Source of the DNA: Rhodocaloribacter litoris
GTDB lineage: Bacteria; Bacteroidota; Rhodothermia; Rhodothermales; ISCAR-4553
Assembly: GCF_011682235.2 (NCBI RefSeq)
Contig: NZ_CP076718.1
Coordinates: forward strand, 62,001 to 126,000
Direction: 5' to 3'
DNA length: 64,000 nucleotides
The translations under genes and the position numbers were made by a program. Of this stretch, positions 15,249 to 37,139 are shown one piece after another. The first letter of the stretch is position 1. Every line of letters begins with the position of its first letter. The notes under the pieces were generated by a model. It was given only the letters and a program-made list of their open reading frames with translations, was not told the origin of the DNA and ran no database searches.

Positions 15249-16460
15249 ATGCCCAAGTTGACCCTCGACGACCTCGACGTGCGCGGGCAGCGGGTGCTGG
15301 TCCGCGTCGACTTCAACGTGCCGCTGTCCGAAGAAGGCGACCGGCGCCGTGTGGCCGACGACACGCGCATCCGGGCCGCGCTCCCGACGATCCGCGCCCT
15401 CCTCGACCGGGGCGGGCGTGCCATCCTGCTGAGCCACCTCGGCCGCCCCAAAGGCACCCCCGACCCGAAGTACAGCCTCGCCCCCGTCGCCGACCACCTC
15501 AAGACCCTCCTCGGGAACGGTACCGGCCGGGCAACACGGGTGGACTTCGTCCCGGCCGTGACGGGTGAGGCCGTGAAAACCCATGCCGCCGCCCTGCCCG
15601 AAGGCGGGGTGCTGTTGCTGGAAAACACGCGCTTCCACCCCGGCGAGACGAAGAACGACGACGCCCTGGCCGCCGAATGGGCCGCCCTGGGGGACCTCTA
15701 CGTGAACGACGCCTTCGGCTCGGCCCACCGGGCCCACGCTTCCACCGTCGGCATCACCCGCCACGTCCGGCAATCCGCCATGGGCTACCTGCTGCAACGC
15801 GAAGTCGAATACCTCGGCCGCGTCCTGGAAAGCCCGGACCACCCCTTCGTGGCCGTCCTCGGCGGGGCCAAGGTGTCGGACAAGATCGGCGTGATCGAAA
15901 ACCTGCTGGACCGGGTGGACCACCTGCTCATCGGGGGGGCCATGAGCTACACGTTCCTGAAGGCCCTGGGCCATGCCACCGGCAAGTCGCTCGTGGAAGA
16001 GGACCGGCTGGAGGAAGCCCGCACACTCTACGAACGGGCCGGCGGCAAGATCAAGCTGCCGGTCGACCACGTGGTGGCGACGGCCTTCGAGAACGACGCC
16101 CCGCACCGCACCGTCACCGGCGACATTCCGGACGGTGAGATGGGCCTGGATGTCGGCCCGGCGACGCTCGAGACCTACCGGAGCATCCTCCTCAAGGCCC
16201 GCACCGTCGTCTGGAACGGCCCGATGGGGGTCTTCGAGATGCCCAACTTCGCCCGCGGGACGTTCGCCGTGGCCGAGGCGCTGGCCGAGGCCACCCGGCA
16301 CGGCGCCCTCACCGTCGTCGGCGGCGGCGACTCGGTGGCGGCCATCAACCGGTCCGGCTACGAAGACCAGGTCAGCCACGTCTCCACCGGCGGCGGCGCC
16401 ATGCTCGAATTCCTCGAAGGCAAGACCCTCCCCGGCATCGCCGCCCTGACGGACAGGTGA
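15249..16460 (+). CDS. pgk: Phosphoglycerate kinase
   Basis: 403 residues from the ATG at 15249 ([20 protein letters not shown]). The open frame extends to 15087 but would run through the gap terminator. Family signatures are RVDFNVPL near residue 20, [53 protein letters not shown], the WNGPMGVFE loop and the nucleotide-binding GGGDSVAA. It makes ATP and 3-phosphoglycerate from 1,3-bisphosphoglycerate, the step after gap. It may have its own promoter given the hairpin upstream. Confidence 0.97.
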
Positions 16461-16476
16461 GCGGCAGCGCGGCGGC

Positions 16477-16676
16477 TCACTCGAGCGCGAGCACGACGAC
16501 GGACTTCGGCGGCAGCGCCACCGTGCATGTCGTCGGAGCAGGAGATGGAGGCACGGGGCCGGCGGCTGCCCCTTCGGCGGCAGCGCCACCGTGCATGTCG
16601 TCCCCGCGAGGCGGGCCCCGTCGAACGGCGCCGGCCGTACCGCGTCCGGCTGCTCGAACGTATTGTGCACGTTCAT
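16477..16676 (-). pseudogene. Relic of the C-terminus of a GH51 alpha-L-arabinofuranosidase
   Basis: Directly after the symporter stop codon the leftward strand reads MNVHNTFEQPDAVRP (from 16676), then APFDGARLAGTTCTVALPPK to 16572. The NTFEQPDAVRP block and the closing beta-strand rich in VALPPK are characteristic of GH51 C-termini. The frame is then broken, and the natural end TVALPPKSVVVLALE with its stop (16479-16477) is found in another frame after a second copy of the same 31 bases. Deleting the 68 bases between equivalent points restores one continuous tail. The catalytic barrel is missing entirely, so this is a dead remnant. It fits a lost last gene of the galactan operon, since GH51 removes arabinose side chains. 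Confidence 0.75.
16504..16602. repeat. Pair of 31-bp direct repeats
   Basis: The same 31 bases, beginning CTTCGGCGGCAGCGCC, occur at 16504-16534 and 16572-16602. They are separated by 37 unrelated bases, an offset of 68 that is not a multiple of three. The repeat encodes TTCTVALPPK of the GH51 relic and is what throws it out of frame. Confidence 0.9.
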
Positions 16677-16698
16677 GGCAGGTCGGTCTTTCCGTTTC

Positions 16699-18300
16699 TC
16701 ACCAGAAAAGGGCATAGAGGGCGGCGGTGATGCCCAGGATACCGAAGGCCGCGGCGGTGAAGACGGGGTCGGCCGCCAGGCGCGTGCCGGCCAGGCGCAC
16801 CGCGTTCGGATGGTCCCGTCCTTTGCCTTCCGCCCAGGAGATGACCATGATCAGCGCCACCGACAGCAGGAACACGTAGCCCATCCGGTTCAGGAACGGG
16901 ACCTCCGGCGCCAGCACCTTCATCCCGGCCGAGAGCGGGATGCTCAGCAGCGCCGAGACCAGCGCGGCGTTGGGGGTCGCCTTCTTCCAGAAGAGCCCCA
17001 TCACGAAGATGGCCAGCACCCCGGGACTGATGAAGCCCGTGTATTCCTGGATGTACTGGAACACCTGGTCGAGCGCCGCCAGCTGCGGGGCCAGCAGCGC
17101 GCCGATCGTGATCGCCACCAGGCTGGCCAGCCGCCCGACCCGCACCAGCTGTGCCTCCGAGGCCTTGCGGCCGATCATGTTCCGGTAGAGGTCCATCGTG
17201 AAGATCGTCGCCGTCGAGTTCATCATCGAGGCCAGGGACGAGACGATGGCCGCCGCCAGCGCCGCGAAGGCCAGCCCGCGCAGACCCGGCCCGACGTAGG
17301 AGGCCAGCAGCCACGGATAGGCCTCATCGCCCCGCGTGATCGGTGCATCTAGCGCGTAGGCCACGATGCCCGGCACCACCACGATCAACGGCAGGAGCAG
17401 CTTCAGGTAGCCCGCAAAAGCCAGCCCGCGGCGGGCCTCCTGCAGGCTCCGGGCCGCCAGCGCCCGCTGGATGATGTACTGGTTGCACCCCCAGTAGAAC
17501 AGGTTGGCCACCCACATCCCGCCCAGCAACACCCCCAGCCCCGGCAGGAGCTGGTAGGCGTCCTGCAACGTGCCGGTGTCGTCCCGGTAGAGCAGCTCGC
17601 CCGGATAGAGGATCATATTGAACCGGTCCCCCGCATCCTGAATCAACTTCCCGAAGCCGGCGATGACCCCCGCCCCGTCGCTGTAGGCGTCGAGCGCCAG
17701 GTAGGTCGTCAGCAGCCCGCCGCCGACGAGCACGAGCACCTGCACCACGTCGGTCCAGGCCACGGCCTTGAGCCCCCCGTAGATGCTGTAGACCGTGGCA
17801 AAGAGCGCCAGCCCCAGGATCCCGGCCCAGAGCGAGATGCCCATGATGCCCTCGAGCGCCAGCGCCCCCAGGTACAGCACACTCGTCAGGTTGACGAACA
17901 CGTAGACGAGCAACCAGAAGACGGCCAGCAGGGTACGTACCCGGCCGTCGTAGCGCTGCTCCAGGAACTGCGGCATCGTATAGATGCCCTTCTCCAGATA
18001 GATCGGCAGGAAGAAATAGGCGATCACGAGCAGCGTTACGGCCGCCATCCACTCGTAGGAGGCGATCGCCAGGCCGAGGCGGAAGCCGGAACCGGACATG
18101 CCGATGAACTGCTCGGCCGAGATGTTGCTGGCGATGAGCGAGGCCCCGATGGCCCACCAGGGCAGCGCCTTGCCGGCGAGGAAGTAGTCGCTGGTGTCTT
18201 TCTGATGTCCTTCTCGTTCCCGGGAAACCCACAGGCCGAGCCCGACGATGACGGCGCCGTAGAGCGCAAAGATGACGTAGTCGAGGGCGGTAAAGTGCAT
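16699..18300 (-). CDS. Sodium/solute symporter (SSS family), probably sugar
   Basis: 533 residues with about 13-14 membrane helices. It opens with the family's N-terminal helix (LDYVIFALYGAVIVGLGLWVSR), followed by TSDYFLAGKALPWWAIGASLIASNISAEQFIGMSG, the region containing the vSGLT-type sodium and sugar site. YSIYGGLKAVAWTDVVQ and the NPAxxxx-free middle are also family-like. In Bacteroidota such carriers next to glycosidases bring monosaccharides across the inner membrane; here galactose is the likely cargo from context. It follows the GH2 gene by 45 bases and is the last intact gene of the susC-led leftward arm. Confidence 0.9.
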   Translation of the reverse strand: MHFTALDYVIFALYGAVIVGLGLWVSREREGHQKDTSDYFLAGKALPWWAIGASLIASNISAEQFIGMSGSGFRLGLAIASYEWMAAVTLLVIAYFFLPIYLEKGIYTMPQFLEQRYDGRVRTLLAVFWLLVYVFVNLTSVLYLGALALEGIMGISLWAGILGLALFATVYSIYGGLKAVAWTDVVQVLVLVGGGLLTTYLALDAYSDGAGVIAGFGKLIQDAGDRFNMILYPGELLYRDDTGTLQDAYQLLPGLGVLLGGMWVANLFYWGCNQYIIQRALAARSLQEARRGLAFAGYLKLLLPLIVVVPGIVAYALDAPITRGDEAYPWLLASYVGPGLRGLAFAALAAAIVSSLASMMNSTATIFTMDLYRNMIGRKASEAQLVRVGRLASLVAITIGALLAPQLAALDQVFQYIQEYTGFISPGVLAIFVMGLFWKKATPNAALVSALLSIPLSAGMKVLAPEVPFLNRMGYVFLLSVALIMVISWAEGKGRDHPNAVRLAGTRLAADPVFTAAAFGILGITAALYALFW

Positions 18301-18345
18301 GAGCGATCAGCGGATTGGAGGAAACGTTGTGTGCGGTGCCGGCGC

Positions 18346-20925
18346 TCAGCCTTCCCGCTCCCGGGGGGCGACGCTGCCCGCGATGCGAAACTTCGGCACC
18401 GTCTCGTCGGCCTGCACGACCGGGTGCCCGTTCACGAAGAGCGCCGCCTGCACCGGCTCGCCGGCCGGGAAGGCACCGTCGTAGCGGGGTGCGCGCGGGC
18501 CGGGCCCGTGGCCACCGGTCGCGTAGCGGATCTCCCACGGCAGCACGTCCCCGCCGAGCGGCGCCGCCCCGCCGAGCAGCCGGACGAGCCCACCCTCCCG
18601 CACGATGGCCAGCGCGTAGACGGCCGCCCGCGGTCGCCGCTCCGCCTGCACCAGCACGCTGGCGATGCCGGCGTCCGAAGATAAGGGGTTCGCCCCGACA
18701 AGCGAAACCCCTCCAATCGTCCCGAAAAACACATTCTCCCAGGCGTCCGGCACGACGGTCCCGTGCTCGTCCTGCAGCGCGGCGTGCACGAAGACCACGT
18801 CCTTGCCGTCGCGGGCGAAGGGGCGGCCGCCCTCGTCCACCCACACCGACAGGCGCACGGGCCGGCCGGGCGTCCGCACGGCGTGGCGGGCCGCAGGGCG
18901 CCCGTCGAGATAGCCGACGGCTTCGAGCAGGCCCGGCTCGAAGCGCTCCAAACGGAACGTGAAGGGCGGATGCGCCAGATGCGTCGAGAGGCGGTCGGCG
19001 TCCGGACGCTGCCGCGCCACGAGGCGGCCGCCCACCGAGAGGGCCACCTCGTCGCAGTTGCTGAACACCCGGACGTCGGTCGGCGAGTCGGGCGTCCAGT
19101 AGCTGGCGATGAACACCATCGGCCCGGAGGCCAGCCCGGGATACCGCTCGGCGGCATCCCGCTGGCTACGGAAGAAGTGGTAGGAGAACTTGGGCAGCCG
19201 GAACAGATCCATGCACCCGGAAGACTCGATGTCCGGCGCATAGCCCCGGTTGTAGTCGAACATCACCCAGAGGCCGTCGGCGAACGCGATCGTCTTGCGG
19301 TTGTCGTTGTGCGCCTCCTGGAAGTTGGTGGCCTGCTGGAGCAGCGCCCGCTCGCCGTGCCAGCGGAGTTGCCGGCTGTTGGCCTCGTCCGGCGCGAGAT
19401 CGGCCCAGGCCTCCTGGTTGAGCCCGGCATTCTGGGCGTAGTACTCCCAGTCGCCGTATTCGCTCACGACGCACGGCCGGTCGGTGACCTCGACGCAGCC
19501 GCCGTGCTGCCGGGCCTGGATGAAGACGTCGTACCCGTCCGTCCAGCCGCAGGTGTACATCTGATCCCCCGGGTATTCCTCGTGGGCGATGGCCTGGGTC
19601 TTCGCCACGAACTCGGGCGGCATCCACGTCTCGTTGAGCGAGACCTCCCACAGGATCACGCACGGGTGGTTGCGGTCCCGGCGAATGAGACGGCGGCAGT
19701 TTTCGTACTGGATCTCCGCGAAACGGGGGTCGTCCCGGTTGAAGTATTGCCAGCCGGGGATGCAGTTCATCACCACCAGCCCCAGCTCGTCGCAGGCCTC
19801 CATGAAGGACGGGTCGTGCGGATAATGCGAGAGGCGGATGTAGTCGAACCCGGCCTCTTTGATCTTCCGGGCGTCCCGGTACTGGGCCGCGTCCGGCACG
19901 GCATAACCGACGTAGGGATACTCCTGATGCCGGTTCGTCCCCCGCAGGAACATCTTCTCCCCGTTGATCCGGAACCCTTCGGCCGAGATCTCGATGCGCC
20001 GGATGCCGATGCGCGTCACTTCCTCGTCGACCACCGCGCCATGCTCGACCAGACGGGTGCGGAGGGTGTACCGGGATGGCGAACGCGGGCTCCAGAGCGC
20101 CGGCCCCAGCACCCGCAGCGTCCGGACGACCTCCGTATCCTGGCCGGGAGCCAGCGTGACGGGGTCGGAGGTGGCCCCGGCCACGACCGCCCCGGCTTCG
20201 TCCTCCAGCACGTATTCGACGACGAAGCGACGCTCCCCGGCGTCGTCGTTGCGTACGTGGACCTGCACCCACACCGAGGCCGCCTCCGGCGTCACCTCGG
20301 GATAGCGCACGAACACCCCTCCGCTGGCGGTCTTATCGGCCAGGATCGGATCGGTGATGTGCAGCGGATCCTTGACGATCAGGTGCACGTCCCGGTAGAT
20401 CCCGTGGTACAGGTTGAAGTCGAGCTGATGGAGCGGCTTCGGGCCGGTGATCGGGTTGTCGGTATTGTCGAGGCGAACGGTCAGGAGGTGCTCGTAGCCG
20501 GGCACGAGGCGGCCGGTGAGGTCGAAGCCGAAGGGCAGGTAGCCGCCCAGGTGCCGGCCGAGGTGCTCGCCGTCGAGCCAGACGTCGGCCACGTTCATGG
20601 CCCCGTCGAAGAGCAGGTAGACCTTCTTGCCGGCCGTCTCGGGTCCCATCACGAAGCGCTTTTCGTACCAGCACAGGCCCTGCCACTGGTAGGTCGGGCT
20701 GCCGGGCTCGCCCGTCACCAGGGCCTCGATGCGGGCGGTGTGCGGCAACGTGACGGGTTCCCAGGCCGCCCCGGCCGGATCCTCGCCCCGGAAGAAGCGC
20801 CAGTCCCGGTTGAAGGAGATGCGCGAGGGCCCGTGCTCCGCCGTCAGCAGACGCCCGGCGGAGGGAGCGAGCAACAGCGCGGCCCCGCCCGCGGCGGTGC
20901 TCTTCAGAAAGTCTCTGCGTCTCAT
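18346..20925 (-). CDS. Tat-exported GH2 glycosidase (beta-galactosidase type)
   Basis: 859 residues. The ATG at 20925 opens a twin-arginine signal (MRRRDFLKSTAAGGAALLLAP). The open frame continues upstream to 21738, but that part is antisense-like and overlaps the neighbour. The order is sugar-binding jelly roll (NRDWRFFRGEDP to VRLDNTDNP), Ig-like domain, TIM barrel and C-terminal Ig-like domains. The barrel carries acid/base Glu432 (EVSLNETWMP) and nucleophile Glu489 (VVSEYGDWEYY). GH2 in this form is beta-galactosidase or beta-glucuronidase; the galactan context favours the former. It lies 110 bases after the clan GH-A enzyme gene and 45 before the symporter gene. Confidence 0.88.
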   Translation of the reverse strand: MRRRDFLKSTAAGGAALLLAPSAGRLLTAEHGPSRISFNRDWRFFRGEDPAGAAWEPVTLPHTARIEALVTGEPGSPTYQWQGLCWYEKRFVMGPETAGKKVYLLFDGAMNVADVWLDGEHLGRHLGGYLPFGFDLTGRLVPGYEHLLTVRLDNTDNPITGPKPLHQLDFNLYHGIYRDVHLIVKDPLHITDPILADKTASGGVFVRYPEVTPEAASVWVQVHVRNDDAGERRFVVEYVLEDEAGAVVAGATSDPVTLAPGQDTEVVRTLRVLGPALWSPRSPSRYTLRTRLVEHGAVVDEEVTRIGIRRIEISAEGFRINGEKMFLRGTNRHQEYPYVGYAVPDAAQYRDARKIKEAGFDYIRLSHYPHDPSFMEACDELGLVVMNCIPGWQYFNRDDPRFAEIQYENCRRLIRRDRNHPCVILWEVSLNETWMPPEFVAKTQAIAHEEYPGDQMYTCGWTDGYDVFIQARQHGGCVEVTDRPCVVSEYGDWEYYAQNAGLNQEAWADLAPDEANSRQLRWHGERALLQQATNFQEAHNDNRKTIAFADGLWVMFDYNRGYAPDIESSGCMDLFRLPKFSYHFFRSQRDAAERYPGLASGPMVFIASYWTPDSPTDVRVFSNCDEVALSVGGRLVARQRPDADRLSTHLAHPPFTFRLERFEPGLLEAVGYLDGRPAARHAVRTPGRPVRLSVWVDEGGRPFARDGKDVVFVHAALQDEHGTVVPDAWENVFFGTIGGVSLVGANPLSSDAGIASVLVQAERRPRAAVYALAIVREGGLVRLLGGAAPLGGDVLPWEIRYATGGHGPGPRAPRYDGAFPAGEPVQAALFVNGHPVVQADETVPKFRIAGSVAPREREG

Positions 20926-21035
20926 CGGCCTGATGGGAAAAGCATGATCGGGATCGTGGGGATCGCCACCGCCGCACCGGTCGCGACCGGGTTCATGCGG
21001 ACCTCCGATGCGGTAAAGCGCCCCGCCGAGGCGGG

Positions 21036-23618
21036 TCATTCCAGGACGATCCGCTCGACGTCGAATCCCCGGGGTACCTCCCGCCCCGCGGCGTCGAACC
21101 AGGCGCCGTCGATGGCGAACTGGAGGCCGTCCAGGTTGCGGGGTTCCGGGGCATCGTCCGGCGTGGCGGCGTCGAACAGGTAGGGCAGGAACTGCGGGTA
21201 GGGGCGCGGCAGGAGGGCCAGCGGGGTGCGCCGCAGCGCGGCCAGCGGCACGGTGTACTCCTGCCAGGCTTCGGTGAGTTCGAGCACGGTCCCCCAGGCG
21301 GTGCCGTCCTGCTCCACGAGGGCCACCTCCAGCCGTCCCTCCGATGCGCCGGCCGCCCGTGCCCGGATGCGCAGCGTCCCCGTCCCCGGCGCCTCCGCCA
21401 GCCGGTGCCGCTGTGCGGGCGTCAGGAACGTGCGCAGGGCGAAATGTCCGGGCTCCGGCGCCAGGCTCTCGACGACGACGCGGAGCGCCGGGCGGTCCGG
21501 CGCGGTGCCTTCGGAAGGCTCCAGGCGGTAGCGCACGTAGTTCCAGAACGCCGGCGCAAGCAGGTGGTCGCGGTCGCGCCGGGCGTCGAAGAGCACCACC
21601 GGGGCGTCTGGCGAGACGACCGGCACGTCCCACGTTGCGCGCCCGGTGAAATCCCACTGGAAGGGATGCCCCGCATCGCCGCCGGGGAAGGTGTGGGTTC
21701 CGTCGCGGCCGAAGACCACGATACGGTAGGAGAGCCATCCCGGCGTGAGGTGCCCGGCAGGGAGCGTGGCCGCGAACGTGAAGCCGTCACCCGGCGTCAT
21801 CCGCAGGGGGCGCGGGCGCCGGAAGCCGCCTCCGGGCGTCCCGGCAAGGAGCCACACCGAATCCGGCGGCGCCGCCGTCACCACGTCGGCCTGCACGGTG
21901 AAGGGCCGCCCCGCCGTCACGGCCTCCGGCGGGGTGTGCCGCACCACCGGCGGCCCCGGCGACGGCGGCGGGACGAAGAAGGTGGCATCGACGGCGGGCA
22001 CCTCCACACCCGGTCGAGCCAGCACGTACACCCCCGGCCGGACGACGAACGCCCCGTCCCGCACGGCCGGGCGGTGCACATTCCCCGCATCGACCGGCTC
22101 CACGGTGAAGGCCGGCCCCAGATCCGGCAGCGCCACCCGCATGCGACGATCCCGCCAGAGCACCCGCGCCACCGGACGCCGCAGGCTCGGGCGGCTGAAC
22201 GGGTCCTCCACCCAGGCGACGTCCGGGTAGACCTCCAGCCGCCAGAGGCCCTCGCCCAGCCGGTCCAGGAAGTAGGCGCCGGTGCCCGCATACGTCACCA
22301 CGGGCGAGGAGCCGACCCCCGCCACGTGCCGGAGCGCCGCCGGCGCCGGCGGGATGGTCTGCGTGTCGTTCGAATGGTAAAAGACCGTGTCCGCTACCAG
22401 CTCGCTCAGGTCGTCTTCGTAGCGGACGCGGAACGGGCCGAAGGTACTCGTTTCGGGGTACGTACCGAACGCGGCCCCGCGCGGGGTGCGGCGGAACACC
22501 TCCCCGGCGATCATGAAGCCGATGGCCCGGCCCGGCGTGTAGACCAGGTTCAGGAAATGGGTCTGGTAATCCGTGTTCGCCCAGGCAAACGCCAGCGGGT
22601 CGTAGGCGAACTGCGTGGCCCACTGGAACCCGGCTTCCCGGAAGCTGCGGGCCATGGCCGGATACAGGTACGACCCCGCCACGTCCGCCGCGTCGAACTC
22701 GTACACCATGCGGGCCTTGTTCCGGCAGTCCGGGAAGTCCGCGAACGGGAGCGGATAGTGATCCACGTTGGGCAGCATGTTCCCCCCCACGGCGGCGCCC
22801 CGGACGAGCCCCGTCGGGTACCACTGCACGCTGACGCCGTCGATGCGGGCGGCGCAGACAGCCCGGCCGTGGGCGTCGGTGTAGCCCTGGCTGATGTTGT
22901 AGAAGATCGGCTTGCGGAAGCCGGCTTCGCGCAGGGCGTCGGCCAGCGTGTCGATGAAGCGGGTCGTCTCCTCCGCACCCCCCGGGTGGCTCGGCTCGTT
23001 GAACAACTCCACGGCGATGATGGCGGGATCGTCGCGATAGCTGTAGCCGGTGTACGGGTTGACGTGTGCGATGAACTGCCGGAGGTAGTTGACCTGCGCC
23101 CGCCGGGCCTCGGGGTCGGTCGTCATCTCCCCTTTGGAATAGTAGTCCGAGATGCCGCCGGTGCCGGGATCCGGCTCGGGATACCCGGCCCCCCACCAGG
23201 CGATCGGCGTCAGGATGGTCCGGATGCCGCGCTCGGCCAGCCGGGCCAGCAGGTAGTCCAGCAGGTCCAGGTGGTCGTTCTCGATCAGGTTGCCGTGCCG
23301 GTCGGTGATCTGGCGATCCCAGACGTGGATGCGGTAAGCGTCGAGGCCCAGGCGGGCGAAGTGGGCCACGTCCTGGTCGATGGCCCGCTTGCGGTCGGCA
23401 CCGACGTAGCCCAGGGCACGGTAGCCATGGGCAAACGGCACCCCGTAGTTCACCCCGAAGAGCGCGACCTCCTCCCCGGTGCTACGCCACCGCATCACCC
23501 CCGTCTCATCGACGAAAACCGGTCCTTCCTGCCCCGATGCCTCGCCAACGGGCATGACCAGCCAGGCCAGGAGCAGGGCGACAAGCCCCCTCGTTCGAAC
23601 GGTTACGGGCATCATCAT
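21036..23618 (-). CDS. Secreted clan GH-A glycosidase, candidate GH147-like beta-galactosidase
   Basis: 860 residues from the first of three consecutive ATGs (23618), followed by a signal peptide (LVALLLAWLVMPVGEASGQ). The catalytic barrel covers about 30-400: ALFGVNYGVPFAHGYRALG, GLDAYRIHVWDRQITD, the acid/base Glu208 in VELFNEPSHPG and the nucleophile Glu307 in MVYEFDAADV. Two to three beta-sandwich domains follow, including a carbohydrate-binding-like C-terminus (LDGLQFAIDGAWFD). The NEP and late Glu motifs place it in clan GH-A. The FGVNYxxPFAHxYRALG opening resembles proteins I associate with family GH147, beta-galactosidases of pectic-galactan loci; that is from memory and unverified. 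GH5 or GH35-like activity is the alternative. Confidence 0.75.
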   Translation of the reverse strand: MMMPVTVRTRGLVALLLAWLVMPVGEASGQEGPVFVDETGVMRWRSTGEEVALFGVNYGVPFAHGYRALGYVGADRKRAIDQDVAHFARLGLDAYRIHVWDRQITDRHGNLIENDHLDLLDYLLARLAERGIRTILTPIAWWGAGYPEPDPGTGGISDYYSKGEMTTDPEARRAQVNYLRQFIAHVNPYTGYSYRDDPAIIAVELFNEPSHPGGAEETTRFIDTLADALREAGFRKPIFYNISQGYTDAHGRAVCAARIDGVSVQWYPTGLVRGAAVGGNMLPNVDHYPLPFADFPDCRNKARMVYEFDAADVAGSYLYPAMARSFREAGFQWATQFAYDPLAFAWANTDYQTHFLNLVYTPGRAIGFMIAGEVFRRTPRGAAFGTYPETSTFGPFRVRYEDDLSELVADTVFYHSNDTQTIPPAPAALRHVAGVGSSPVVTYAGTGAYFLDRLGEGLWRLEVYPDVAWVEDPFSRPSLRRPVARVLWRDRRMRVALPDLGPAFTVEPVDAGNVHRPAVRDGAFVVRPGVYVLARPGVEVPAVDATFFVPPPSPGPPVVRHTPPEAVTAGRPFTVQADVVTAAPPDSVWLLAGTPGGGFRRPRPLRMTPGDGFTFAATLPAGHLTPGWLSYRIVVFGRDGTHTFPGGDAGHPFQWDFTGRATWDVPVVSPDAPVVLFDARRDRDHLLAPAFWNYVRYRLEPSEGTAPDRPALRVVVESLAPEPGHFALRTFLTPAQRHRLAEAPGTGTLRIRARAAGASEGRLEVALVEQDGTAWGTVLELTEAWQEYTVPLAALRRTPLALLPRPYPQFLPYLFDAATPDDAPEPRNLDGLQFAIDGAWFDAAGREVPRGFDVERIVLE

Positions 23619-23773
23619 GCGAACGGATGTGGGATGACGGCACACGCCGGGGCTGCTCGGCCGCCGTGCCCGGCGCTTATGGCGAGGCGGGACCGCCGGC
23701 GCCGGTGAGGCCATGCCTCCCGCCTGCCGCGCCCCGCCTCGACCCCGCCAGTTTCATGAAAGACGGCTGCCGG

Positions 23774-24691
23774 CTAGCGGACGATCAGCATCTGCCGGGT
23801 CACGGCGTGACCGCCCGTGCCCAGCGCCAACCGATAGAAATACAGGCCGGGCGGCAGCAGGCGGCCGGCTTCATCCCGGCCGTCCCAGCGGGCCGCATGC
23901 GGGCCCACCGGCTGCACGGCCTCCACGAGCGTACGCACGCGCCGTCCGAGCAGGTCGAACACCTCCAGCCGCACGGCACCGGGACGGTTCAGGCGATAGT
24001 CGATGTGCGTGGTCGTCCCGGCCACGAACGGGTTCGGGGCGTTCTGTGCCAGCTCGAAGAGCGCCGGGGTCTCCCCCTCGATGGCCGTGCTCACCGCGCG
24101 GAACAGGCGGACGTTGTCCACCTCGGCCCAGCTGTTATCGCCACTCGTGTCGGGGTCGTCATCGCCGTTCGTGTTGTCCACGGCCACGCCCAGCCGGTGC
24201 CCGATGGCCTCGGGCACGTCGTCAGCCGAGAAGGAAGCGGTGATCTCCACCATGGGCTCGCTGATGCCCTCGAAATCCCAGGTGGTGGTGGCAACCGGGA
24301 CGCGCGTGCCGTTGTCATCGTAGTAGAGGATGACGTCGAAGGTGGTGGCCTGCCAGCTGCTCCGCGCATCCACGTGCAGCGTGTAGGTCTCCCCGGCCGC
24401 GATGACATGCTCGGTCAGTTGCCAGAGCTGGGGGTCGAAGTTGGCCAGCCAGGCCGCGCAGACCCCGTCGGTGGCGTTGGCATTGTCCGAGACGCCCGAG
24501 TCGACCGGGGGGGTGTCCATGCTCCAGCCGGGCACGTCGATGAAGTTCGTCACCCGGATGCACGGCGTGTTGCCGTTCGGGTCGAGTTCGAAGCTAGGGT
24601 TGATGAGCGTGATGGCTTCCTGGGCGTGGGCGCCGGCCGCCCACACGCCCGGCAGGAGCAACAGGACGAACGTTCGTAGCAGTGTCTTCAT
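23774..24691 (-). CDS. Secreted surface protein with T9SS sorting domain, candidate glycan binder
   Basis: 305 residues: a signal peptide (MKTLLRTFVLLLLPGVWAAGAHA), a beta-sandwich region at about 25-200 beginning ITLINPSFELDPNG with acidic D-rich turns (NTNGDDDPDTSGDNSWAEVDNVRLF), and a C-terminal T9SS-type domain (FELAQNAPNPFVAGTTTHIDYRL, VFDLLGRRVRTL, GLYFYRLALG, ending QMLIVR). The NPSFE start and the WAEVDNVRL end are typical of galactose-binding-like modules. It occupies the place right after susD where SusE/F-like surface glycan-binding proteins are found, 46 bases downstream. Binding to galactan is inferred from position only. Confidence 0.75.
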   Translation of the reverse strand: MKTLLRTFVLLLLPGVWAAGAHAQEAITLINPSFELDPNGNTPCIRVTNFIDVPGWSMDTPPVDSGVSDNANATDGVCAAWLANFDPQLWQLTEHVIAAGETYTLHVDARSSWQATTFDVILYYDDNGTRVPVATTTWDFEGISEPMVEITASFSADDVPEAIGHRLGVAVDNTNGDDDPDTSGDNSWAEVDNVRLFRAVSTAIEGETPALFELAQNAPNPFVAGTTTHIDYRLNRPGAVRLEVFDLLGRRVRTLVEAVQPVGPHAARWDGRDEAGRLLPPGLYFYRLALGTGGHAVTRQMLIVR

Positions 24692-24736
24692 GGCATCCTC
24701 CGCATGGCATGCGTCTGGTTCGGGGGACAGAGGGGG

Positions 24737-26254
24737 TCAGTAGCCGGGGTTCTGCTCGATCACGCCGCCCCCCTGGTCGATGACCTCCTGTGGGATGGGG
24801 AACAGCACGTGGTGCGGCCCGGCGCTGGCACCCGCCGGCGCGTATTCGATGAACTTGCCGTGGCGGATCAGATCCTGCCGCCGGACCCCCTCGGCGTAGA
24901 GCTCGCGTCCCCGCTCCTGCAGGATAGCCTCCCGGAACTGCGCCTGCGTCATGCCACTCCAGGGTGCCAGCCCGGCGCGGGCCCGCACCTGGTTGACGTA
25001 CTCGTAGGCCTCATCCGGGCCGCGCTGCTCGTTGATGGCCTCGGCCAGCGAGAGCAACGTCTCGGCGTAGCGAAAGACCGGCATGTCAAAGCCGTAACCG
25101 GGCCCATCCCCCTGGATGTCGGTGAACTTGAGCGGGATGGCCCCGCGCATACCGTTGTTGCGAGTCCGCACGGCGCCGGAGGTGGTCACGTAGCTATCGG
25201 CGATGGTATGGAGCCGCTCGTCGCCGGGCTCGAAGAGGTCGTAGAACTCCCAGGGCATCCAGAAACCGTACCACCCCGGCCCCCGCGTGATGGTCTTGCC
25301 CGAAGGCAGGGTCGTCGAGGCAAAGTTCGGCGGGATGATCTCCTGCGGCCAGTAGTTCTGCGAGGCTTCGTTGGCCGGGACGGCGTAGATGATTTCGTTG
25401 TTCTGCTCGACGTTGAACACGTCCGGGTAGTAGGGCATCAGCGAGTAGCCCATCGCCATGATGTCGCGGGCCACCTGTTCGGCTTTGGCCCACTGCTTCT
25501 CGTGCATGTAGAGGCGCAGCAGTACCATGCGCACGGCGCCCTTGCTCACCCGTCCCCAGTTGGCCGCATCGCCGTTGTAGCGGTCGGGTAGATCGGGCAG
25601 GGCCTCCAGCAGGTCCTGCTCGATGGCGGCCACGTACTCCTCTTTCGACGGGCGCGGGGTGATGGTGGGATCATGCAACGTCGCCGGGTCCAGCTTCACG
25701 TTCACCGGGCCGAAGAAGTCGTAGAGGATGTACATGAGCCAGCCGCGCAGCGCCTTCGCCTCGGCGATGTAGCGTGCCTTGACCTCGGGCGGCACGGGCG
25801 CGTCCGACTTCTGGATCTTGTCGATGACGTCGGTGGCCCGGGCCACGTAGCGGATCTTGGCGTAGGTGGGCCCGTTGCCGCCGTTGAACGTAGTCGGCCC
25901 CCATTCGAAGAAGTCGAACGTGGTGCTCCAGGGACTGAACAGCTCGTCCGTGGGGGTCATGCTCCGGATCAGGTACGTCTTCGGGTCGTGGTTGTAGAGC
26001 GCGGCATACCACACCCCGGCGCCCTGGTCGGTCGTTCCCCAGTCGGTCATGAAGGGGTTGTAGAGAGCGGCCACGGCGGTCCGGAAATCCGCCTCCGAGG
26101 AGAAGAACGTCTCCGGGGTCAGGTCGCCGAACACCTCCGGTTCGAGCAGGTCCGAGCATCCTGCCAGCGGGAGCAGGAGCAGACCGGAGAGCGCGAGCAG
26201 CACCGCGCAACGGGAGCAAGCCGCCGATACGGGCGACACGGGAAGGTTTTTCAT
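24737..26254 (-). CDS. susD: SusD/RagB family surface glycan-binding lipoprotein
   Basis: 505 residues. A lipoprotein signal ends in LLPLAGCSD (lipobox Cys near residue 33), followed by LLEPEVFGDLTPETFFSSEADF, the classic SusD N-terminus. Alpha-helical TPR-like segments and the C-terminal block LSLAEAINEQRGPDEAYEYVNQVRARAGL (here given in part) and FREAILQERGRELYAEGVRRQDLIRHG are diagnostic. SusD caps its SusC partner at the outer membrane and delivers oligosaccharides. It follows susC by 15 bases. The ligand is inferred to be galacto-oligosaccharide from the locus. Confidence 0.95.
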   Translation of the reverse strand: MKNLPVSPVSAACSRCAVLLALSGLLLLPLAGCSDLLEPEVFGDLTPETFFSSEADFRTAVAALYNPFMTDWGTTDQGAGVWYAALYNHDPKTYLIRSMTPTDELFSPWSTTFDFFEWGPTTFNGGNGPTYAKIRYVARATDVIDKIQKSDAPVPPEVKARYIAEAKALRGWLMYILYDFFGPVNVKLDPATLHDPTITPRPSKEEYVAAIEQDLLEALPDLPDRYNGDAANWGRVSKGAVRMVLLRLYMHEKQWAKAEQVARDIMAMGYSLMPYYPDVFNVEQNNEIIYAVPANEASQNYWPQEIIPPNFASTTLPSGKTITRGPGWYGFWMPWEFYDLFEPGDERLHTIADSYVTTSGAVRTRNNGMRGAIPLKFTDIQGDGPGYGFDMPVFRYAETLLSLAEAINEQRGPDEAYEYVNQVRARAGLAPWSGMTQAQFREAILQERGRELYAEGVRRQDLIRHGKFIEYAPAGASAGPHHVLFPIPQEVIDQGGGVIEQNPGY

Positions 26255-26269
26255 GGTCCTTCGATGGCG

Positions 26270-29200
26270 CTAAAAGTTGAGCTCCAGCCCGAACGTCGTC
26301 GTATAGGCCTTCGGGTAGGGGTTCGGTTCGGTAAACTCCGGATCGAAGCCCGGATAGCTCGTGAAGACGGCCAGGTCCTGCACCGTCACGAACAGCCGGG
26401 CCGATTGCAGCGGGCTGCCCGTCCCCAGCAGCCGGCCCGGCACCGTATAGCCGAGCGACACGTTGCGGAGCCGGAGAAAGCCCGCATCCTTCAGGTTGAA
26501 GTCGTGGTTGCCGGTCGGATTCTGCGTGTTGTAGGGGTTGGTTGCAATGCCGGGAAAGGTGCCGTCCGGGTTCGTCGAGGACCAGACGTCCCGGGCATAG
26601 ATGGTCGTGTTCTCCGGGTTGGTGGGCTGGGAGATCACGAAGGTGTTGGGCGCGAAGTTGTTGTTCCGCTTGTAGCCCAGGTTGCCGTAGAGGTAGACGT
26701 TGAGGTCGAAGCCGCCCAGCGTGAAGGTGTTGTTGAAGCCGACGACCCAGCGCGGCGCGGCATTGCCCAGGATGACCACGTCCTGCTCGTCGAGGACGCC
26801 GTCCCCGTTCTGATCGACGTAGCGGAGGTTGCCCACGTTGGCGTTCGGCATGTGGGCCGGGCGGTCGGTCTCGCTCCGGATGATGCCGTCGGTCTGCCAG
26901 CCGTAGATGGCATCGAGCGGGTCGTTCTCGCCGATATAGGGAGCCAGCGGCACCTGCGGGTTCCGCTCGACCCAGAAGCTCTTGTAGTGCGAGACGCTCA
27001 CGTCGGTCTCCCACGCGAACCGCCCTGCCTCGACGTTCCGCGTGTGCAGCTCGATCTCGAAGCCGCGGCTGCGGGTGGCGCCCACGTTGTCCGCCACCCG
27101 CCCGACGGCGTTGTTCGACGGCAGCGGGTTGAAGTCGAGCAGGTCCCGCGCCGTCTTGACGAAGTAGTCGACCGAACCGCGGACGCGGTTGGCCCAGAGG
27201 CCGAAGTCCACCCCCACGTTGAAGGTCGAGACCGTCTCCCAGCGGAGGTCCGGGTTGGCCACCTGCGAGAGGGCCACGCCGTTGTAGAGCGTATTACCGA
27301 TCAGGAAGGGGTAGCCCGGACTGTAGAGCTGCAGGGCATTGCCGCTGAGGATGCTCTCGTTGCCGGCCTGCCCGTAGCCGGCCCGCACCTTGAGCTGCGT
27401 CACGGCCGCCACGTCCCGCAGGAACGCCTCGTCCGAGACAATCCAGGCCGCCGAGATGCCGGGGAAGAAACCCCACTGGTGGTTCTCGGCGAAGATGCTG
27501 GAGCCGTCCCGCCGGGCCACCAGGGAGAGGATGTACCGGTCGTGCAGGCTGTAGTTCAGCCGGGCGAACTGCGAGAGCTTCGTCCGCGCGGTCTTCCACG
27601 AGCCGATGCGGTTCTGCAGCAACTCGGTCGAGACACCCAGGTTGTTGTAGGAGAAAGCATCGGTGAAGAAGCCCACGCCCTGCATCGAGGACCCTTCCGT
27701 CAGCGCCCGGTAATAACCCGCCCCGCCGACGACGGTCAGGCTGCTGGGGCCAAACTGGTTCGTGTAGGTGAGGTACGTCTCGGCGCTGTAGTTCTCGACG
27801 GTCGACTCGCTCTTCTGCGCCATCCCTTCCGGGAACTGCGCGTTGTTCGTGGTGCGTGGCAGGTAGAACCCCCGCACCGTCGACTCGCTCTGTGCCTGCC
27901 CGACGACGTTCAGCCGCAGCTGATCCGTCAGGTCTACCTCGACGGTCGGGGTGGCGAAAAGGCTCGTCGTCCGGCTCCGGTCGTCGATGGCCAGAAACGC
28001 CGCCGGGTTCATGATGAGCCGGTTGAAGGTAGAGGCGTATTCTCCGTTCTCCTCGAAGACCGGCACGGTGGGCGAATAGGCCATCGCCGCCTGGATCATG
28101 TTGAATTTCTCCTGCCCGCCCGAGTTGGCCCCCGTCGAGGCATTGTTGCCTTCCAGCCGGCTGGCGGACATGCGCAGGCGCAGGCGCACCCGATCCGAGA
28201 CGGTCTGGTCCAGATTGACGCGGCCGCTGTAGCGCCTCAGCCCCGAGTTTTTGAGGACGGCGTCGTTGTCTTGAAGGTTGAACGAGACGTAGGCGGTCGT
28301 CGTGGCCGAGCCCCCGCTCAGGGACAGGTTGTGCTCGTGGATGTGACCGTTCTCGGTGATCAGCCCCAGCCAGTCCGTCCCCTCACCGGCCGCCTGCATC
28401 TCCTGCTCGGTAAAGAGCGGGATGTAGGGCGAGACGCTGTTCGGGTCGGTCGTGCCGTAGGGAGCGATGCGGTTTTCAAACAGGTACCGCTCGTAGGCCA
28501 GCCGGTTTTGCTCCTGCATGAACTGCCGGGCGTTCATCAGGGGGAAGTAGTCGTAGGGCGTCTGCGCCGAGAAGCTGCCGCGGTAGTTGACCCGCAGGCG
28601 GCCGGCCCGCCCGCTCCGGGTGGTGATCAGCACGACGCCGTTGGCGGCCGCCGAGCCGTAGATGGCCGCCGCGCTGGCGTCCTTGAGCACCGTCACCGAG
28701 GCGATGTCTTCCGGGTTGAGGAAGCTGAGCGGATCCCGGTCGATGCCGCCATAGAACCCCAGGTCGGTATCATCGAGCCCCGGCACGGAGGAGGTGTACT
28801 CGGTCACGGGCACCCCGTCGATGACGTAGAGCGGGGTGTTGTTGCCGCGCGGCGAGATGGCGCCCCGGATGTTGACCGAGACGCCGCCGCCCGGCTGGGC
28901 CGAGCGCGTCTGCAGGTTCAGGCCGGGCGCCCGCCCCTGCAGGAGCTGGTTGACCGTGGTGGTGCCCACGGGTTCGAGCCGCTCCACGTCCACCGTCGTG
29001 ACGGCGCCGCTGAGGTTGCGCTCCCGCTGCGCGACGTACCCGACCACCACGATGTTCTCCAGCACCTGCACGTCCGGCACGAGCGCCACGTCGATCACCT
29101 CGCGCCCGTCGACGGGGACGAGCTGCGTCACGTACCCGACGAAGGAGAAAACGAGGGTGTCCCGCCCGGCCGGCACCTGCAGGCGGTACGTTCCGTCCAC

Positions 29201-29371
29201 CCCGGTGGCCGTGCCCCGGTCGGTGCCCCGGATCACGATGTTCACCCCGGGCAGCGGCGTTCCTTCCTCCCGGTCGGTCACCTGCCCTCGCACGGTATGC
29301 TGGGCCCCCACCGGTGCCGCAGCACTCCCCGCCAGGAGGAGCAGGAACAGCAAGAACTGGGTCGCTCTCAT
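26270..29371 (-). CDS. susC: SusC/RagA TonB-dependent outer-membrane transporter
   Basis: 1033 residues from the ATG at 29371 (MRATQFLLFLLLLAG), chosen because it begins a signal peptide ending VGAQ; the frame upstream to 29431 carries no signal. A carboxypeptidase-regulatory-like domain follows (GQVTDREEGTPLPGVNIVI), then ENIVVVGYVAQRERNLSGAV, the plug (LYVIDGVPV, VLKDASAAAIYGSAAANGVVLITTRSG) and a long beta-barrel ending in FGLELNF. It would import oligosaccharides across the outer membrane using TonB energy. It is the first gene of the leftward arm, with promoter hexamers and a LacI operator upstream. Confidence 0.96.
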   Translation of the reverse strand: MRATQFLLFLLLLAGSAAAPVGAQHTVRGQVTDREEGTPLPGVNIVIRGTDRGTATGVDGTYRLQVPAGRDTLVFSFVGYVTQLVPVDGREVIDVALVPDVQVLENIVVVGYVAQRERNLSGAVTTVDVERLEPVGTTTVNQLLQGRAPGLNLQTRSAQPGGGVSVNIRGAISPRGNNTPLYVIDGVPVTEYTSSVPGLDDTDLGFYGGIDRDPLSFLNPEDIASVTVLKDASAAAIYGSAAANGVVLITTRSGRAGRLRVNYRGSFSAQTPYDYFPLMNARQFMQEQNRLAYERYLFENRIAPYGTTDPNSVSPYIPLFTEQEMQAAGEGTDWLGLITENGHIHEHNLSLSGGSATTTAYVSFNLQDNDAVLKNSGLRRYSGRVNLDQTVSDRVRLRLRMSASRLEGNNASTGANSGGQEKFNMIQAAMAYSPTVPVFEENGEYASTFNRLIMNPAAFLAIDDRSRTTSLFATPTVEVDLTDQLRLNVVGQAQSESTVRGFYLPRTTNNAQFPEGMAQKSESTVENYSAETYLTYTNQFGPSSLTVVGGAGYYRALTEGSSMQGVGFFTDAFSYNNLGVSTELLQNRIGSWKTARTKLSQFARLNYSLHDRYILSLVARRDGSSIFAENHQWGFFPGISAAWIVSDEAFLRDVAAVTQLKVRAGYGQAGNESILSGNALQLYSPGYPFLIGNTLYNGVALSQVANPDLRWETVSTFNVGVDFGLWANRVRGSVDYFVKTARDLLDFNPLPSNNAVGRVADNVGATRSRGFEIELHTRNVEAGRFAWETDVSVSHYKSFWVERNPQVPLAPYIGENDPLDAIYGWQTDGIIRSETDRPAHMPNANVGNLRYVDQNGDGVLDEQDVVILGNAAPRWVVGFNNTFTLGGFDLNVYLYGNLGYKRNNNFAPNTFVISQPTNPENTTIYARDVWSSTNPDGTFPGIATNPYNTQNPTGNHDFNLKDAGFLRLRNVSLGYTVPGRLLGTGSPLQSARLFVTVQDLAVFTSYPGFDPEFTEPNPYPKAYTTTFGLELNF

Positions 29372-29532
29372 GGAAACACGATGGTTTGGATGCAAAGACC
29401 AGGGGCCCGGACGACGCGGCCGGCATCCCATAGCGCTTCCGGGCGACAGGGCACGGCTGCCCCGCCTCCGGCGAACCGGCCGGGGATACCTTCTCGAACC
29501 CAGAATACTGGTTCAGAAGGTTACAGAACCAC

Positions 29533-29546
29533 ATGAACCGATTCAA
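29533..29546. promoter_or_regulatory. LacI-type operator upstream of susC
   Basis: ATGAACCGATTCAA matches 13 of 14 positions of the consensus TTGAAYCGRTTCAA deduced from this window. It lies 9 bases downstream of the leftward -10 hexamer, across the likely transcription start region, where a bound LacI-type protein would block susC expression. Confidence 0.75.
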
Positions 29547-29555
29547 GTGCAAATC

Positions 29556-29584
29556 ATAGTACCCTGCCCCTCCATGACAGTCAA
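29556..29584 (-). promoter_or_regulatory. Promoter of the susC operon
   Basis: On the leftward strand TTGACT (29584-29579) and TACTAT (29561-29556) are separated by exactly 17 bases. They match the sigma-70 consensus at 5 and 4 of 6 positions. The LacI operator follows 9 bases downstream, and the susC start is about 180 bases further, leaving a long leader. Confidence 0.6.
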
Positions 29585-29640
29585 GATGAAAAGGTGAAGT
29601 TATGATGAAGGAATGATGAGGACGGGGAGGCGGTTCGGGC

Positions 29641-30678
29641 TCATGCCGCCTCGGCCGGCGCGGCTGTCGTGTCCCGCAGCACAAGCTTGAAATCGAGCTG
29701 GACCTTCTCGACGGGCAGGGCCGAGGTGGCATTGATGTGCCGGTCCAGGATCTGCACCGCCCGCTCGCCCATCTCCCGCTTGGGCACATGCACCGTGGAC
29801 AGCGCCCAGGGAGCATACCGGAGGAACTCCAGGTCGTCGAAGCCCATCACGGAGACGTCCTCCGGCACCCGCAGGCCCAGTTCGTGCAGGGCCCGCAGCA
29901 ACCCCATCGCCACCAGGTCATTGTAGCAGACCACCGCCGTGGGGCGTGCCGGGTGATGCTGCCTGAAATAGTCCATCCCCGCCCGGTAGCCGTCCTGCAG
30001 GTGCGCCCCCGCGTACACGATCTGATCCTTCCGGAGGGACAGGCTGGACTCACTGAAGGCCCGGCGCACTCCTTCGAGCCGGTCCTCGCTGTGCAGCGAA
30101 TAGGGCGGCCCGGCAAAGTAAACGATCTGGGAGTGCCCCTGTTCGATCAGGTAGTTCACCGCCGCCTGCGACGCCCGGATGTTGTCGATATCGACCAGGT
30201 TGGCCTGCAGGCCCCGCACACCTTCCAGCAACACAAACGGCACGTTGCGCCGCTTCAGGTCGAAGATGTGCGAGAGGTCCGCCTGGCTGTCGAGCACAGG
30301 GGTGATGATGAGCCCGCTGACGTCCTTGGCCGTCATCAACTCGACGATCCGCTGTTCGGCCTCGTAGGAACCTTCCGAGCTGGCCACGAGGATCGTGTAT
30401 CCGTTCTCCTCGGCAAAACGGCGCGCCCCGGCCACCACCTCGAAATAGTACGGGTTGTCTTCCTCCTTGATGATGACCCCGATGCTGCGCCCTGCCCGGG
30501 GACGAAGCCGGTTACGGGCGGCTTCCCGGGGCCGGTAGTTCAACTGCTCGATCACGGCCAGCACGTTGCGCCGCGTGGCCTCCCCCACCGTATCCTTGTT
30601 GTTGATGACGGCCGAAACAGTCGCCTTGGAGACCCCCGCCAGCCGGGCAACGTCCGAGATGGTTGGATTTTTTGACAT
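29641..30678 (-). CDS. LacI/GalR family transcriptional regulator of the galactan locus
   Basis: 345 residues. The N-terminal HTH (TISDVARLAGVSKATVSAVIN, residues 5-25, here given in full at 21 is shortened: ISDVARLAGVSKATVSAVI) is followed by the hinge helix and a periplasmic-binding-protein-like sensor domain starting RSIGVIIKEEDNPYYFEVV. AVVCYNDLVAMGLLRAL and VSVMGFDDLEFLRYAPW are typical of the family. It lies between susC and galM. A perfect palindrome lies 20 bases before its own start and related sites precede both arms, so it is probably an autoregulated repressor whose inducer comes from galactan or galactose. Confidence 0.92.
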   Translation of the reverse strand: MSKNPTISDVARLAGVSKATVSAVINNKDTVGEATRRNVLAVIEQLNYRPREAARNRLRPRAGRSIGVIIKEEDNPYYFEVVAGARRFAEENGYTILVASSEGSYEAEQRIVELMTAKDVSGLIITPVLDSQADLSHIFDLKRRNVPFVLLEGVRGLQANLVDIDNIRASQAAVNYLIEQGHSQIVYFAGPPYSLHSEDRLEGVRRAFSESSLSLRKDQIVYAGAHLQDGYRAGMDYFRQHHPARPTAVVCYNDLVAMGLLRALHELGLRVPEDVSVMGFDDLEFLRYAPWALSTVHVPKREMGERAVQILDRHINATSALPVEKVQLDFKLVLRDTTAAPAEAA

Positions 30679-30697
30679 GTCGATGTTCTCGTTGTGA

Positions 30698-30713
30698 CTT
30701 GAATCGGTTCAAG
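30698..30713. promoter_or_regulatory. LacI-type operator upstream of lacI-like gene (autoregulation)
   Basis: CTTGAATCGGTTCAAG is the best copy of the shared palindrome: 14 of 14 consensus positions plus an extra pairing base on each side. It overlaps the candidate -10 hexamer of the regulator gene and ends 20 bases before its ATG. Confidence 0.8.
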
Positions 30714-30739
30714 TTAGGTTTATCCCGGTACCGATGCAA
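30711..30739 (-). promoter_or_regulatory. Possible promoter of the lacI-like gene
   Basis: Leftward TTGCAT (30739-30734) and TAACTT (30716-30711) have a 17-base spacer. The -10 match is only 3 of 6, but the hexamer overlaps the operator at 30698-30713 as expected for a self-repressing gene. Confidence 0.4.
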
Positions 30740-30844
30740 CGGGGCCCCCGGCTAATGTTCCGATCCACCCCGGCTCCACCCGTCCATATCCCGGAGCACC
30801 CTGGCACCGGACAGACCGTTTCACCAATCCTTAACATTTCATAC

Positions 30845-30873
30845 TTGCAAAGAAGCAGGCATCGCTTTACAAT
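30845..30873 (+). promoter_or_regulatory. Promoter of the galM-galT-galK-GH53 operon
   Basis: TTGCAA (30845-30850) and TACAAT (30868-30873) are separated by 17 bases and match the sigma-70 consensus at 4 and 5 of 6 positions. The first of two operator copies starts 10 bases downstream, almost the same spacing as at the susC promoter. Confidence 0.65.
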
Positions 30874-30883
30874 CTGAACCCTA

Positions 30884-30897
30884 TTGAATCGGTTTAT
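30884..30897. promoter_or_regulatory. LacI-type operator 1 upstream of galM
   Basis: TTGAATCGGTTTAT keeps the full left half and centre of the consensus TTGAAYCGRTTCAA (11 of 14) but has a degenerate right end. Its centre is 21 bases, two helical turns, from that of the second copy. Confidence 0.6.
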
Positions 30898-30904
30898 CAG
30901 GTTT

Positions 30905-30918
30905 TTGAACCGATGTAA
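30905..30918. promoter_or_regulatory. LacI-type operator 2 upstream of galM
   Basis: TTGAACCGATGTAA matches 12 of 14 consensus positions. It lies 33 bases before the galM ATG. With the copy at 30884-30897 it forms a tandem pair on the same face of the helix, suggesting cooperative binding. Confidence 0.6.
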
Positions 30919-30951
30919 ACCCTTTTCCACCGCCCGGCCCGGCCGTTGCCA

Positions 30952-32067
30952 ATGACGACGTCCCACGCGGCATCGCACCCGACACCGCCCGCCTCTCCCC
31001 TCCCCCGCGGCATCACCCCCGCTGCCTTCGGAACAACCGGGGACGGGGTGCCGGTCGAAGCCTTCCGGCTCGTCAACGCACGCGGCGCCTCGATGCAGGT
31101 GCTCACCTACGGCGGCATCATCACCGCCCTGACCCTGCCGGACCGGGACGGCCGCTTCGCGGACGTCGTGCTCGGCTTCGACACCCTGGAAGACTACCTG
31201 CACGACACCGCCTACATGGGCGCCCTCATCGGGCGCTATGCCAACCGCATCGCCGGCGGCCGCTTCGCGCTCGACGGCCACACCTACACCCTTGCCCGCA
31301 ACGAGGGTCCCCACCACCTCCACGGCGGCCCCCGGGGGTTCAACAGGGTGGTCTGGCGGGCCCGGCCATTCGAGAACGCACGGGGCGTGGGGCTGGTCCT
31401 GCACCACACCAGCCCACACGGCGACCAGGGCTATCCCGGCACCCTGCAGGTACGGGTCACCTACACGCTCACCGACGACAACGCGCTCTGCCTCGACTAC
31501 TTCGCCGAAACCGACGCCCCCACCCCCGTCAGCCTGACCCAGCACCTGTACTTCAACCTGGCCGGGCGAGGAAGCATCCTGGAGCACGAGCTCCAGCTCC
31601 TGGCCGACCACTTCACCCCCACGGATGCCACCCAGATCCCGACCGGCGCGATCCGGCCGGTCTCGGGCACCCCGTTCGACTTCACCGTCCCCACACCCAT
31701 CGGCCGCCACATCCATGCCCACGATCCCCAGCTCCGCCACGGGCAGGGCTACGACCACTTCTTCGTGCTCCGGCGCAACGGCACCGCCCCCGAAGGTGAC
31801 ACGATGGTGCCGGCCGCCCGCGTCTACGAGCCCATGAGCGGACGGCGCATGACGGTCTACACCACCGCCCCCGGGGTGCAGTTCTACGCCGGCAACCGCC
31901 TCGACGGGCGCAGGGGCAAAAACGGGCACCCCTACCTCCCCCGCACGGGCTTCTGCCTGGAGACCCAGCACTTTCCCGATGCACCCAACCAGCCCACCTT
32001 CCCTCCGGCCATCGTGCAACCCAGTCACCCCTACCGGTCGCGCACGGTCTTTGCGTTCTCCGTCTGA
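30952..32067 (+). CDS. galM: Aldose 1-epimerase (galactose mutarotase)
   Basis: 371 residues, cytoplasmic, no signal peptide. Galactose mutarotase fold with LTYGGIITALTLPDRDG, GRYANRIAGGRF, the His-rich NEGPHHLHGG, SLTQHLYFNLAG (second catalytic His) and the catalytic base Glu in FCLETQHFPDAPNQP. It interconverts alpha and beta anomers so that released beta-galactose can enter the Leloir pathway. The ATG at 30952 was preferred to a TTG two codons earlier. It is the first gene of the rightward arm and is followed by galT after 15 bases. Confidence 0.95.
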   Translation: MTTSHAASHPTPPASPLPRGITPAAFGTTGDGVPVEAFRLVNARGASMQVLTYGGIITALTLPDRDGRFADVVLGFDTLEDYLHDTAYMGALIGRYANRIAGGRFALDGHTYTLARNEGPHHLHGGPRGFNRVVWRARPFENARGVGLVLHHTSPHGDQGYPGTLQVRVTYTLTDDNALCLDYFAETDAPTPVSLTQHLYFNLAGRGSILEHELQLLADHFTPTDATQIPTGAIRPVSGTPFDFTVPTPIGRHIHAHDPQLRHGQGYDHFFVLRRNGTAPEGDTMVPAARVYEPMSGRRMTVYTTAPGVQFYAGNRLDGRRGKNGHPYLPRTGFCLETQHFPDAPNQPTFPPAIVQPSHPYRSRTVFAFSV

Positions 32068-32082
32068 CCTCCACGCGCACCC

Positions 32083-33126: not shown

Positions 33127-33157
33127 TGCGCGTATTCCTCGCCAACCAGTCCTGCCC

Positions 33158-34378: not shown

Positions 34379-34393
34379 CCCCCCGCCGTTGCC

Positions 34394-36978: not shown

Positions 36979-37139
36979 GGCAACCCCCTCCGGGCGGTCG
37001 ATGACCCGGTGGCGCACCGGATACATCGCGTGGGACGAACATGCAGCCTGCTGAAGGTTAACGCGAGGTACGGCGATCCGTTCGCCACCGGCTTTCCGTA
37101 CCGTCCTCATACCCCCTCTTCCCTTTCATCCAGCTCCGT

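Follow-up and report, generated by a model that had tools for sequence, protein, structure and literature searches.

A GH51 alpha-L-arabinofuranosidase gene remnant between pgk and a galactan block in Rhodocaloribacter litoris

Layout of the locus

The window, the whole 64,000-nucleotide stretch of DNA analysed here, belongs to a genome of the order Rhodothermales (G000; 4.50 Mb, single contig, 99.9% complete, 0% contamination). Within it, a 238-bp seam separates a native block of genes ending in pgk from a galactan block held in common with another genome of the order, G008 (one contig of 4,807,988 bp), and the remnant of a GH51 gene sits within this seam. The features are as follows.

15249 to 16460, plus strand: pgk, phosphoglycerate kinase, the end of the native collinear block (conserved order; 80% identical in G001, a genome of the same family)
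16461 to 16476, no strand: 16-bp gap from the GH51 stop codon to the convergent pgk stop codon, read from the sequence
16477 to 16534, minus strand: last piece of the GH51 C-terminal remnant, in another frame and including the GH51 stop codon (translation; weak profile score; match to L035)
16504 to 16534, minus strand: copy 2 of a 31-bp direct repeat
16535 to 16571, minus strand: 37-bp filler between the repeat copies, occurring once in the genome
16572 to 16602, minus strand: copy 1 of the 31-bp direct repeat, 100% identical to copy 2
16572 to 16682, minus strand: first frame of the GH51 C-terminal remnant (PAMNVHNTFEQPDAVRP...TCTVALPPK), recognised by PF06964 and a GH51 profile
16683 to 16698, minus strand: 16 bp of seam from the symporter stop to the first GH51-like codon; identity to G008 ends at 16698
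16699 to 18300, minus strand: sodium:solute symporter (SSF), outermost gene of the shared block (PF00474, E=2.5e-69; 95% amino-acid identity in G008)
16698 to 36514, no strand: galactan/galactose block common to G008 (DNA identity to G008; Pfam)

On the pgk side, the genes for LolD, a response regulator, a TPR protein, gapdh and pgk follow one another in the same order in the window and in G001, the sole same-family genome compared and the one by which the native order is defined. G001 continues after pgk with an mscS-type gene. The homologue of that gene in the present genome (71%) lies at 3.74 Mb, so the order of genes breaks right after pgk; other relatives carry various other genes at this point. 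The displaced homologue is part of a run of corA-like, mscS and mscS genes beside SusC/SusD-like and enolase-superfamily genes (G000:C1:3740498-3750000), and this region may be where the rearrangement has its second end. A simple inversion between pgk and mscS/corA, which would once have placed the symporter beside the SusC/SusD genes at 3.744 Mb, was considered; this order was not seen in G008, which gave weak matches only. The seam was judged to hold neither a functional RNA nor a terminator: no Rfam family matched it, its folding is ordinary (z=-1.59, no strong signal), and the sole terminator-like site found lies inside the symporter gene, outside the seam.

The other side of the seam opens with the stop codon of the symporter (16701-16699). 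Behind it, Pfam searches identify genes for GH2, a weak GH5/GH1-like hydrolase, a T9SS-tailed protein, SusD-like and SusC-like proteins, LacI, mutarotase, galT, galK and a T9SS-tailed GH53, the labels of the T9SS-tailed protein at 23774 and of the SusD-like protein coming from a reading of the sequence and not from a family search. We take this gene content (SusC/SusD, GH53, GH2, gal genes) to be that of a Bacteroidota beta-1,4-galactan polysaccharide utilization locus, and the window shows the same content from 16699 to 36514. The block has neither a GH51 nor a GH43 arabinofuranosidase; the GH51 tail stands just beyond the part common to G008.

The block matches G008:C1:4465898-4484889 at 92.7% over 14237 bp and at 95.5% over 4571 bp, as far as position 36496. 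DNA identity between the two genomes is 90.6% for the symporter, against 80.5% for gapdh and 75.3% for pgk; identity in the block thus exceeds housekeeping identity as sampled by these two genes. Since the two genomes belong to different families, horizontal exchange of the galactan block between lineages, in either direction, is the natural reading of this high identity. The shared identity stops at, or a few bases from, the stop codons of both outermost block genes, which is odd for random recombination; faster divergence of the flanking non-coding DNA could also explain these edges. No tRNA was found in the window, and no integrase or transposase among the window proteins scanned with Pfam, a scan that is not a systematic search for mobile elements. 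Two further observations concern the block and its far edge. The mutarotase is intact in the window (30918-31941) and appears to have been lost from the block in G008, where about 246 bp with a short end match occupy G008:C1:4480089-4480335. Just past the right edge of the block, a 199-residue frame (36508-37107, minus strand) encodes a TonB plug domain without the barrel and may be a truncated SusC-like gene at the seam on that side.

Homology and decay of the GH51 remnant

Translation and profile search identify the minus strand from 16682 to 16477 as coding for the C-terminal ~45 residues of a GH51 alpha-L-arabinofuranosidase. The first frame (16682-16572) reads PAMNVHNTFEQPDAVRPAPFDGARLAGTTCTVALPPK (also given as AMNVHNTFEQPDAVRPAPFDGARLAGTTCTVALPPK), and the second reads TTCTVALPPKSVVVLALE, followed by a stop, down to 16477. 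Among the residues kept are the motifs NTFE.PDAVRP and PPKSVVVL. The first frame aligns with positions 129-163 of the 165 in PF06964 (Alpha-L-AF_C) at E=4.4e-4 and 21 bits, short of the 27-bit gathering score because the tail alone is present. Against a profile made from 19 GH51 proteins of Rhodothermales it scores 27.0 bits; when the 238 bp were dinucleotide-shuffled 2000 times, no shuffle exceeded 11.8 bits. A tblastn search with the intact G008 enzyme as the query aligned its residues 473-510 of 517 at 58% identity (E=7.8e-9) and found no other site in the whole genome. The closest single match of the first piece is the GH51 of G073 (L150), with 73.5% identity over 34 residues. The second piece by itself reaches only 4.6 bits, at positions 516-532 of the GH51 profile; a 26-nt stretch of it matches the end of the GH51 gene in L035 at 96%, and the GH51 stop codon falls at 16479-16477. 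The first-pass annotation had placed a GH51 C-terminal tail just past the symporter stop on the same strand, and the Pfam model, the order-specific profile, the shuffles and the tblastn search agree with it; translating the minus strand and searching for GH51, as it had proposed, did return a match.

The same annotation had ascribed the split of the tail to a frameshift. The frame is indeed broken, but by a 68-bp insertion between the two pieces, which consists of a second copy of the 31-bp stretch and the 37-bp filler. Plain tandem duplication was rejected as the cause of the break because the duplicated stretch accounts for only 31 of the 68 inserted bases and Tandem Repeats Finder lists no array here. 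When the filler's first 30 bases were searched for with up to 3 mismatches allowed, the genome gave a single hit. The insertion probably arose through local repair or template switching, acting on DNA that would already have been released from selection.

Compared with an intact enzyme, the remnant has lost about 90% of the gene, and what is left is broken in frame. The catalytic domain of GH51 enzymes is a (beta/alpha)8 fold with two catalytic glutamates. No such domain was found anywhere in the genome, in which the C-terminal query residues already given were the only ones to match. Recognisable homology, confirmed by the shuffle control, is combined here with disruption and with intact homologues in other genomes (14 of the 114 genomes of the order carry a GH51 above the family cut-off). 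The remnant is a dead GH51 alpha-L-arabinofuranosidase pseudogene, most likely without a function of its own.

Gene neighbourhoods and the origin of the remnant

From one side to the other, the seam joins the native block up to pgk, the GH51 remnant and the galactan block common to another genus. This order is probably best explained by a GH51 pseudogene stub of ~200 bp that was caught in a recombination seam or rearrangement breakpoint. The galactan block would have passed horizontally between lineages, and the end of the symporter may have become fused to the GH51 tail by a deletion or rearrangement that removed about 90% of the GH51 gene. That the incoming galactan block split a GH51 gene into two parts was rejected, since tblastn found no N-terminal part anywhere in the genome.

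Two more specific histories can be set beside this one, and both depend on where GH51 genes lie in relatives. The first-pass annotation had taken GH51 to be the last gene of a galactan, perhaps formerly arabinogalactan, operon at this place, with all of that gene but its tail since deleted. The position of the remnant on the symporter's strand and directly adjoining it speaks for this history, as does the occurrence in the order of GH51 next to T9SS-secreted proteins: G032 has two GH51 genes ~2 kb apart, adjoined by pieces that resemble the C-terminal part of the GH53 and T9SS-tailed proteins. That the genome shows no other GH51, no GH43 and neither of two kinds of isomerase (see below) fits a loss of arabinose use. 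Against this history stands the block of G008, 93-95% identical over about 19 kb, where the symporter ends at the same point and is followed by an unrelated gene, oxidoreductase-like by a reading of its sequence and not by a family search. A GH51-like frame within 3 kb downstream of the symporter was likewise found in 0 of 99 records other than the window's own, the best 80 of 589 named ones included. The records compared number 102 (22 plus the 80 named), 100 of them with at least 300 bp downstream; the 99 correspond to 97 places, given second copies in G008 and G007, and the same genome may occur among both the named and the unnamed records. Two further matches at symporter loci are noise (E above 4), and in L097 a GH51 gene lies upstream of the symporter on the opposite strand. 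Conversely, 24 GH51 locus records contain no close relative of the symporter (those present are 33-34% identical) and no pgk. A terminal GH51 gene in this operon is a tentative proposal that we hold to be possible but doubtful. Because the seam is itself a break in gene order, adjacency to the symporter is no proof of former operon membership. The syntenic comparison that the annotation had suggested turned out partly as its refuting condition foresaw: G008 carries an unrelated gene past the symporter, and the other symporter loci examined show no GH51 downstream.

The second history, to which we give about the same limited credence, makes the GH51 gene a resident or separately gained one, convergent to pgk and truncated by the arriving galactan block or by another rearrangement. 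The stop codon of the tail is 16 bp from that of pgk, an ordinary spacing for a convergent pair; across the tail from pgk lies the edge of the shared block, and the order of genes breaks past pgk. But none of the other 29 pgk loci has a GH51 gene. These belong to 30 of the 41 loci listed (the window's own included, 28 of the 30 with at least 300 bp downstream), and five longer stretches were also free of GH51 near pgk. An ancestral pgk-GH51 neighbourhood was not seen in these loci, and the idea was set aside. Furthermore, G001 has its mscS-type gene past pgk and no GH51 above threshold, and neither the opposite edge of the block nor the rest of the genome yielded a GH51 N-terminus. In the loci examined, then, GH51 genes do not usually stand beside either neighbour of the remnant.

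G008 also carries a decayed GH51 sequence. A C-terminal fragment of another GH51 subtype (L034:12216-12800, near G008:C1 1295215-1295800; profile positions 420-532, 57.9 bits) lies directly past a GH43 gene and is followed shortly, by eye, by a stretch like the signal peptide of the locus's intact GH51. It adds another instance of a decaying GH51 gene within the order.

An assembly or sequencing artefact, with the repeat plus filler, or even the seam, absent from the real chromosome, is very improbable. Short-read assembly of GC-rich DNA can go wrong at 31-bp repeats, which are a possible source of such an error here, but the assembly is one near-complete contig and the filler is unique in the genome. 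Chance similarity in GC-rich antisense sequence, suggested by an overlap of the remnant with a probably spurious 497-codon open frame antisense to pgk, was rejected as having next to no likelihood, given the margin over the shuffles, two tail pieces that join up across the insertion, and a stop codon at the place where GH51 genes have theirs.

Arabinose capacity and significance

Apart from the remnant, profile (PF06964) and tblastn searches of the whole genome found no GH51, and genome-wide searches found neither GH43 nor AraA. An intact GH51 context within the order is provided by the arabinose locus of G008, which comprises GH51, two esterase-like genes, GH43, a LacI-like gene, a fucose-isomerase-type isomerase, araB, araD and a symporter; GH51, GH43 and the isomerase of this set were not found in the present genome. 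PF02610 (AraA) occurs in only 3 of the 114 genomes of the order and is by itself a poor test of arabinose use, so the fucose-isomerase-type enzyme was searched for as well. From its neighbours araB and araD, we infer that the G008 enzyme acts on arabinose; its sole NCBIfam match is to a sulfoquinovose isomerase model, far below the cut-off. It is present in 26 of the 114 genomes, and the present one is not among them. G001, from the same family, also lacks AraA and the fucose-isomerase-type enzyme, in addition to having no GH51 above threshold.

One or the other isomerase accompanies GH51 in 11 of the 14 genomes over the cut-off and occurs in 18 of the 100 without it (Fisher p=1.2e-5, a statistic that ignores relatedness and is drawn from 114 genomes, incomplete ones included). 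As GH51, GH43, AraA and the fucose-isomerase-type enzyme are all missing, the arabinose side looks absent genome-wide, and it is plausible, from these four families, that arabinose use was lost or is lacking. This absence does not show that the galactan operon once handled arabinose. A listing in PMC7409140 includes Roseithermus sacchariphilus strain RA with a GH51 and a GH53 enzyme. A literature search found nothing joining GH51, GH53, a polysaccharide utilization locus and a pseudogene.

A fuller scenario can be drawn, in which an arabinogalactan locus with a terminal GH51 passed among Rhodothermales and was then pared down to a galactan locus alongside loss of the arabinose pathway, the stub being its fossil. 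We consider it rather unlikely; were it true, the GH51 fragment past GH43 in G008 would make the loss of side-chain enzymes a repeated pattern.

The history proposed in the first-pass annotation is supported only in part. Gene stubs at such seams are ordinary in kind, and the value of this one is local: it shows where the old chromosome meets a block common across genera and records, in small and checkable form, the assembly of a sugar-use locus. The lack of GH51, GH43 and the arabinose isomerases predicts that the organism would use galactan without using arabinan or arabinose.
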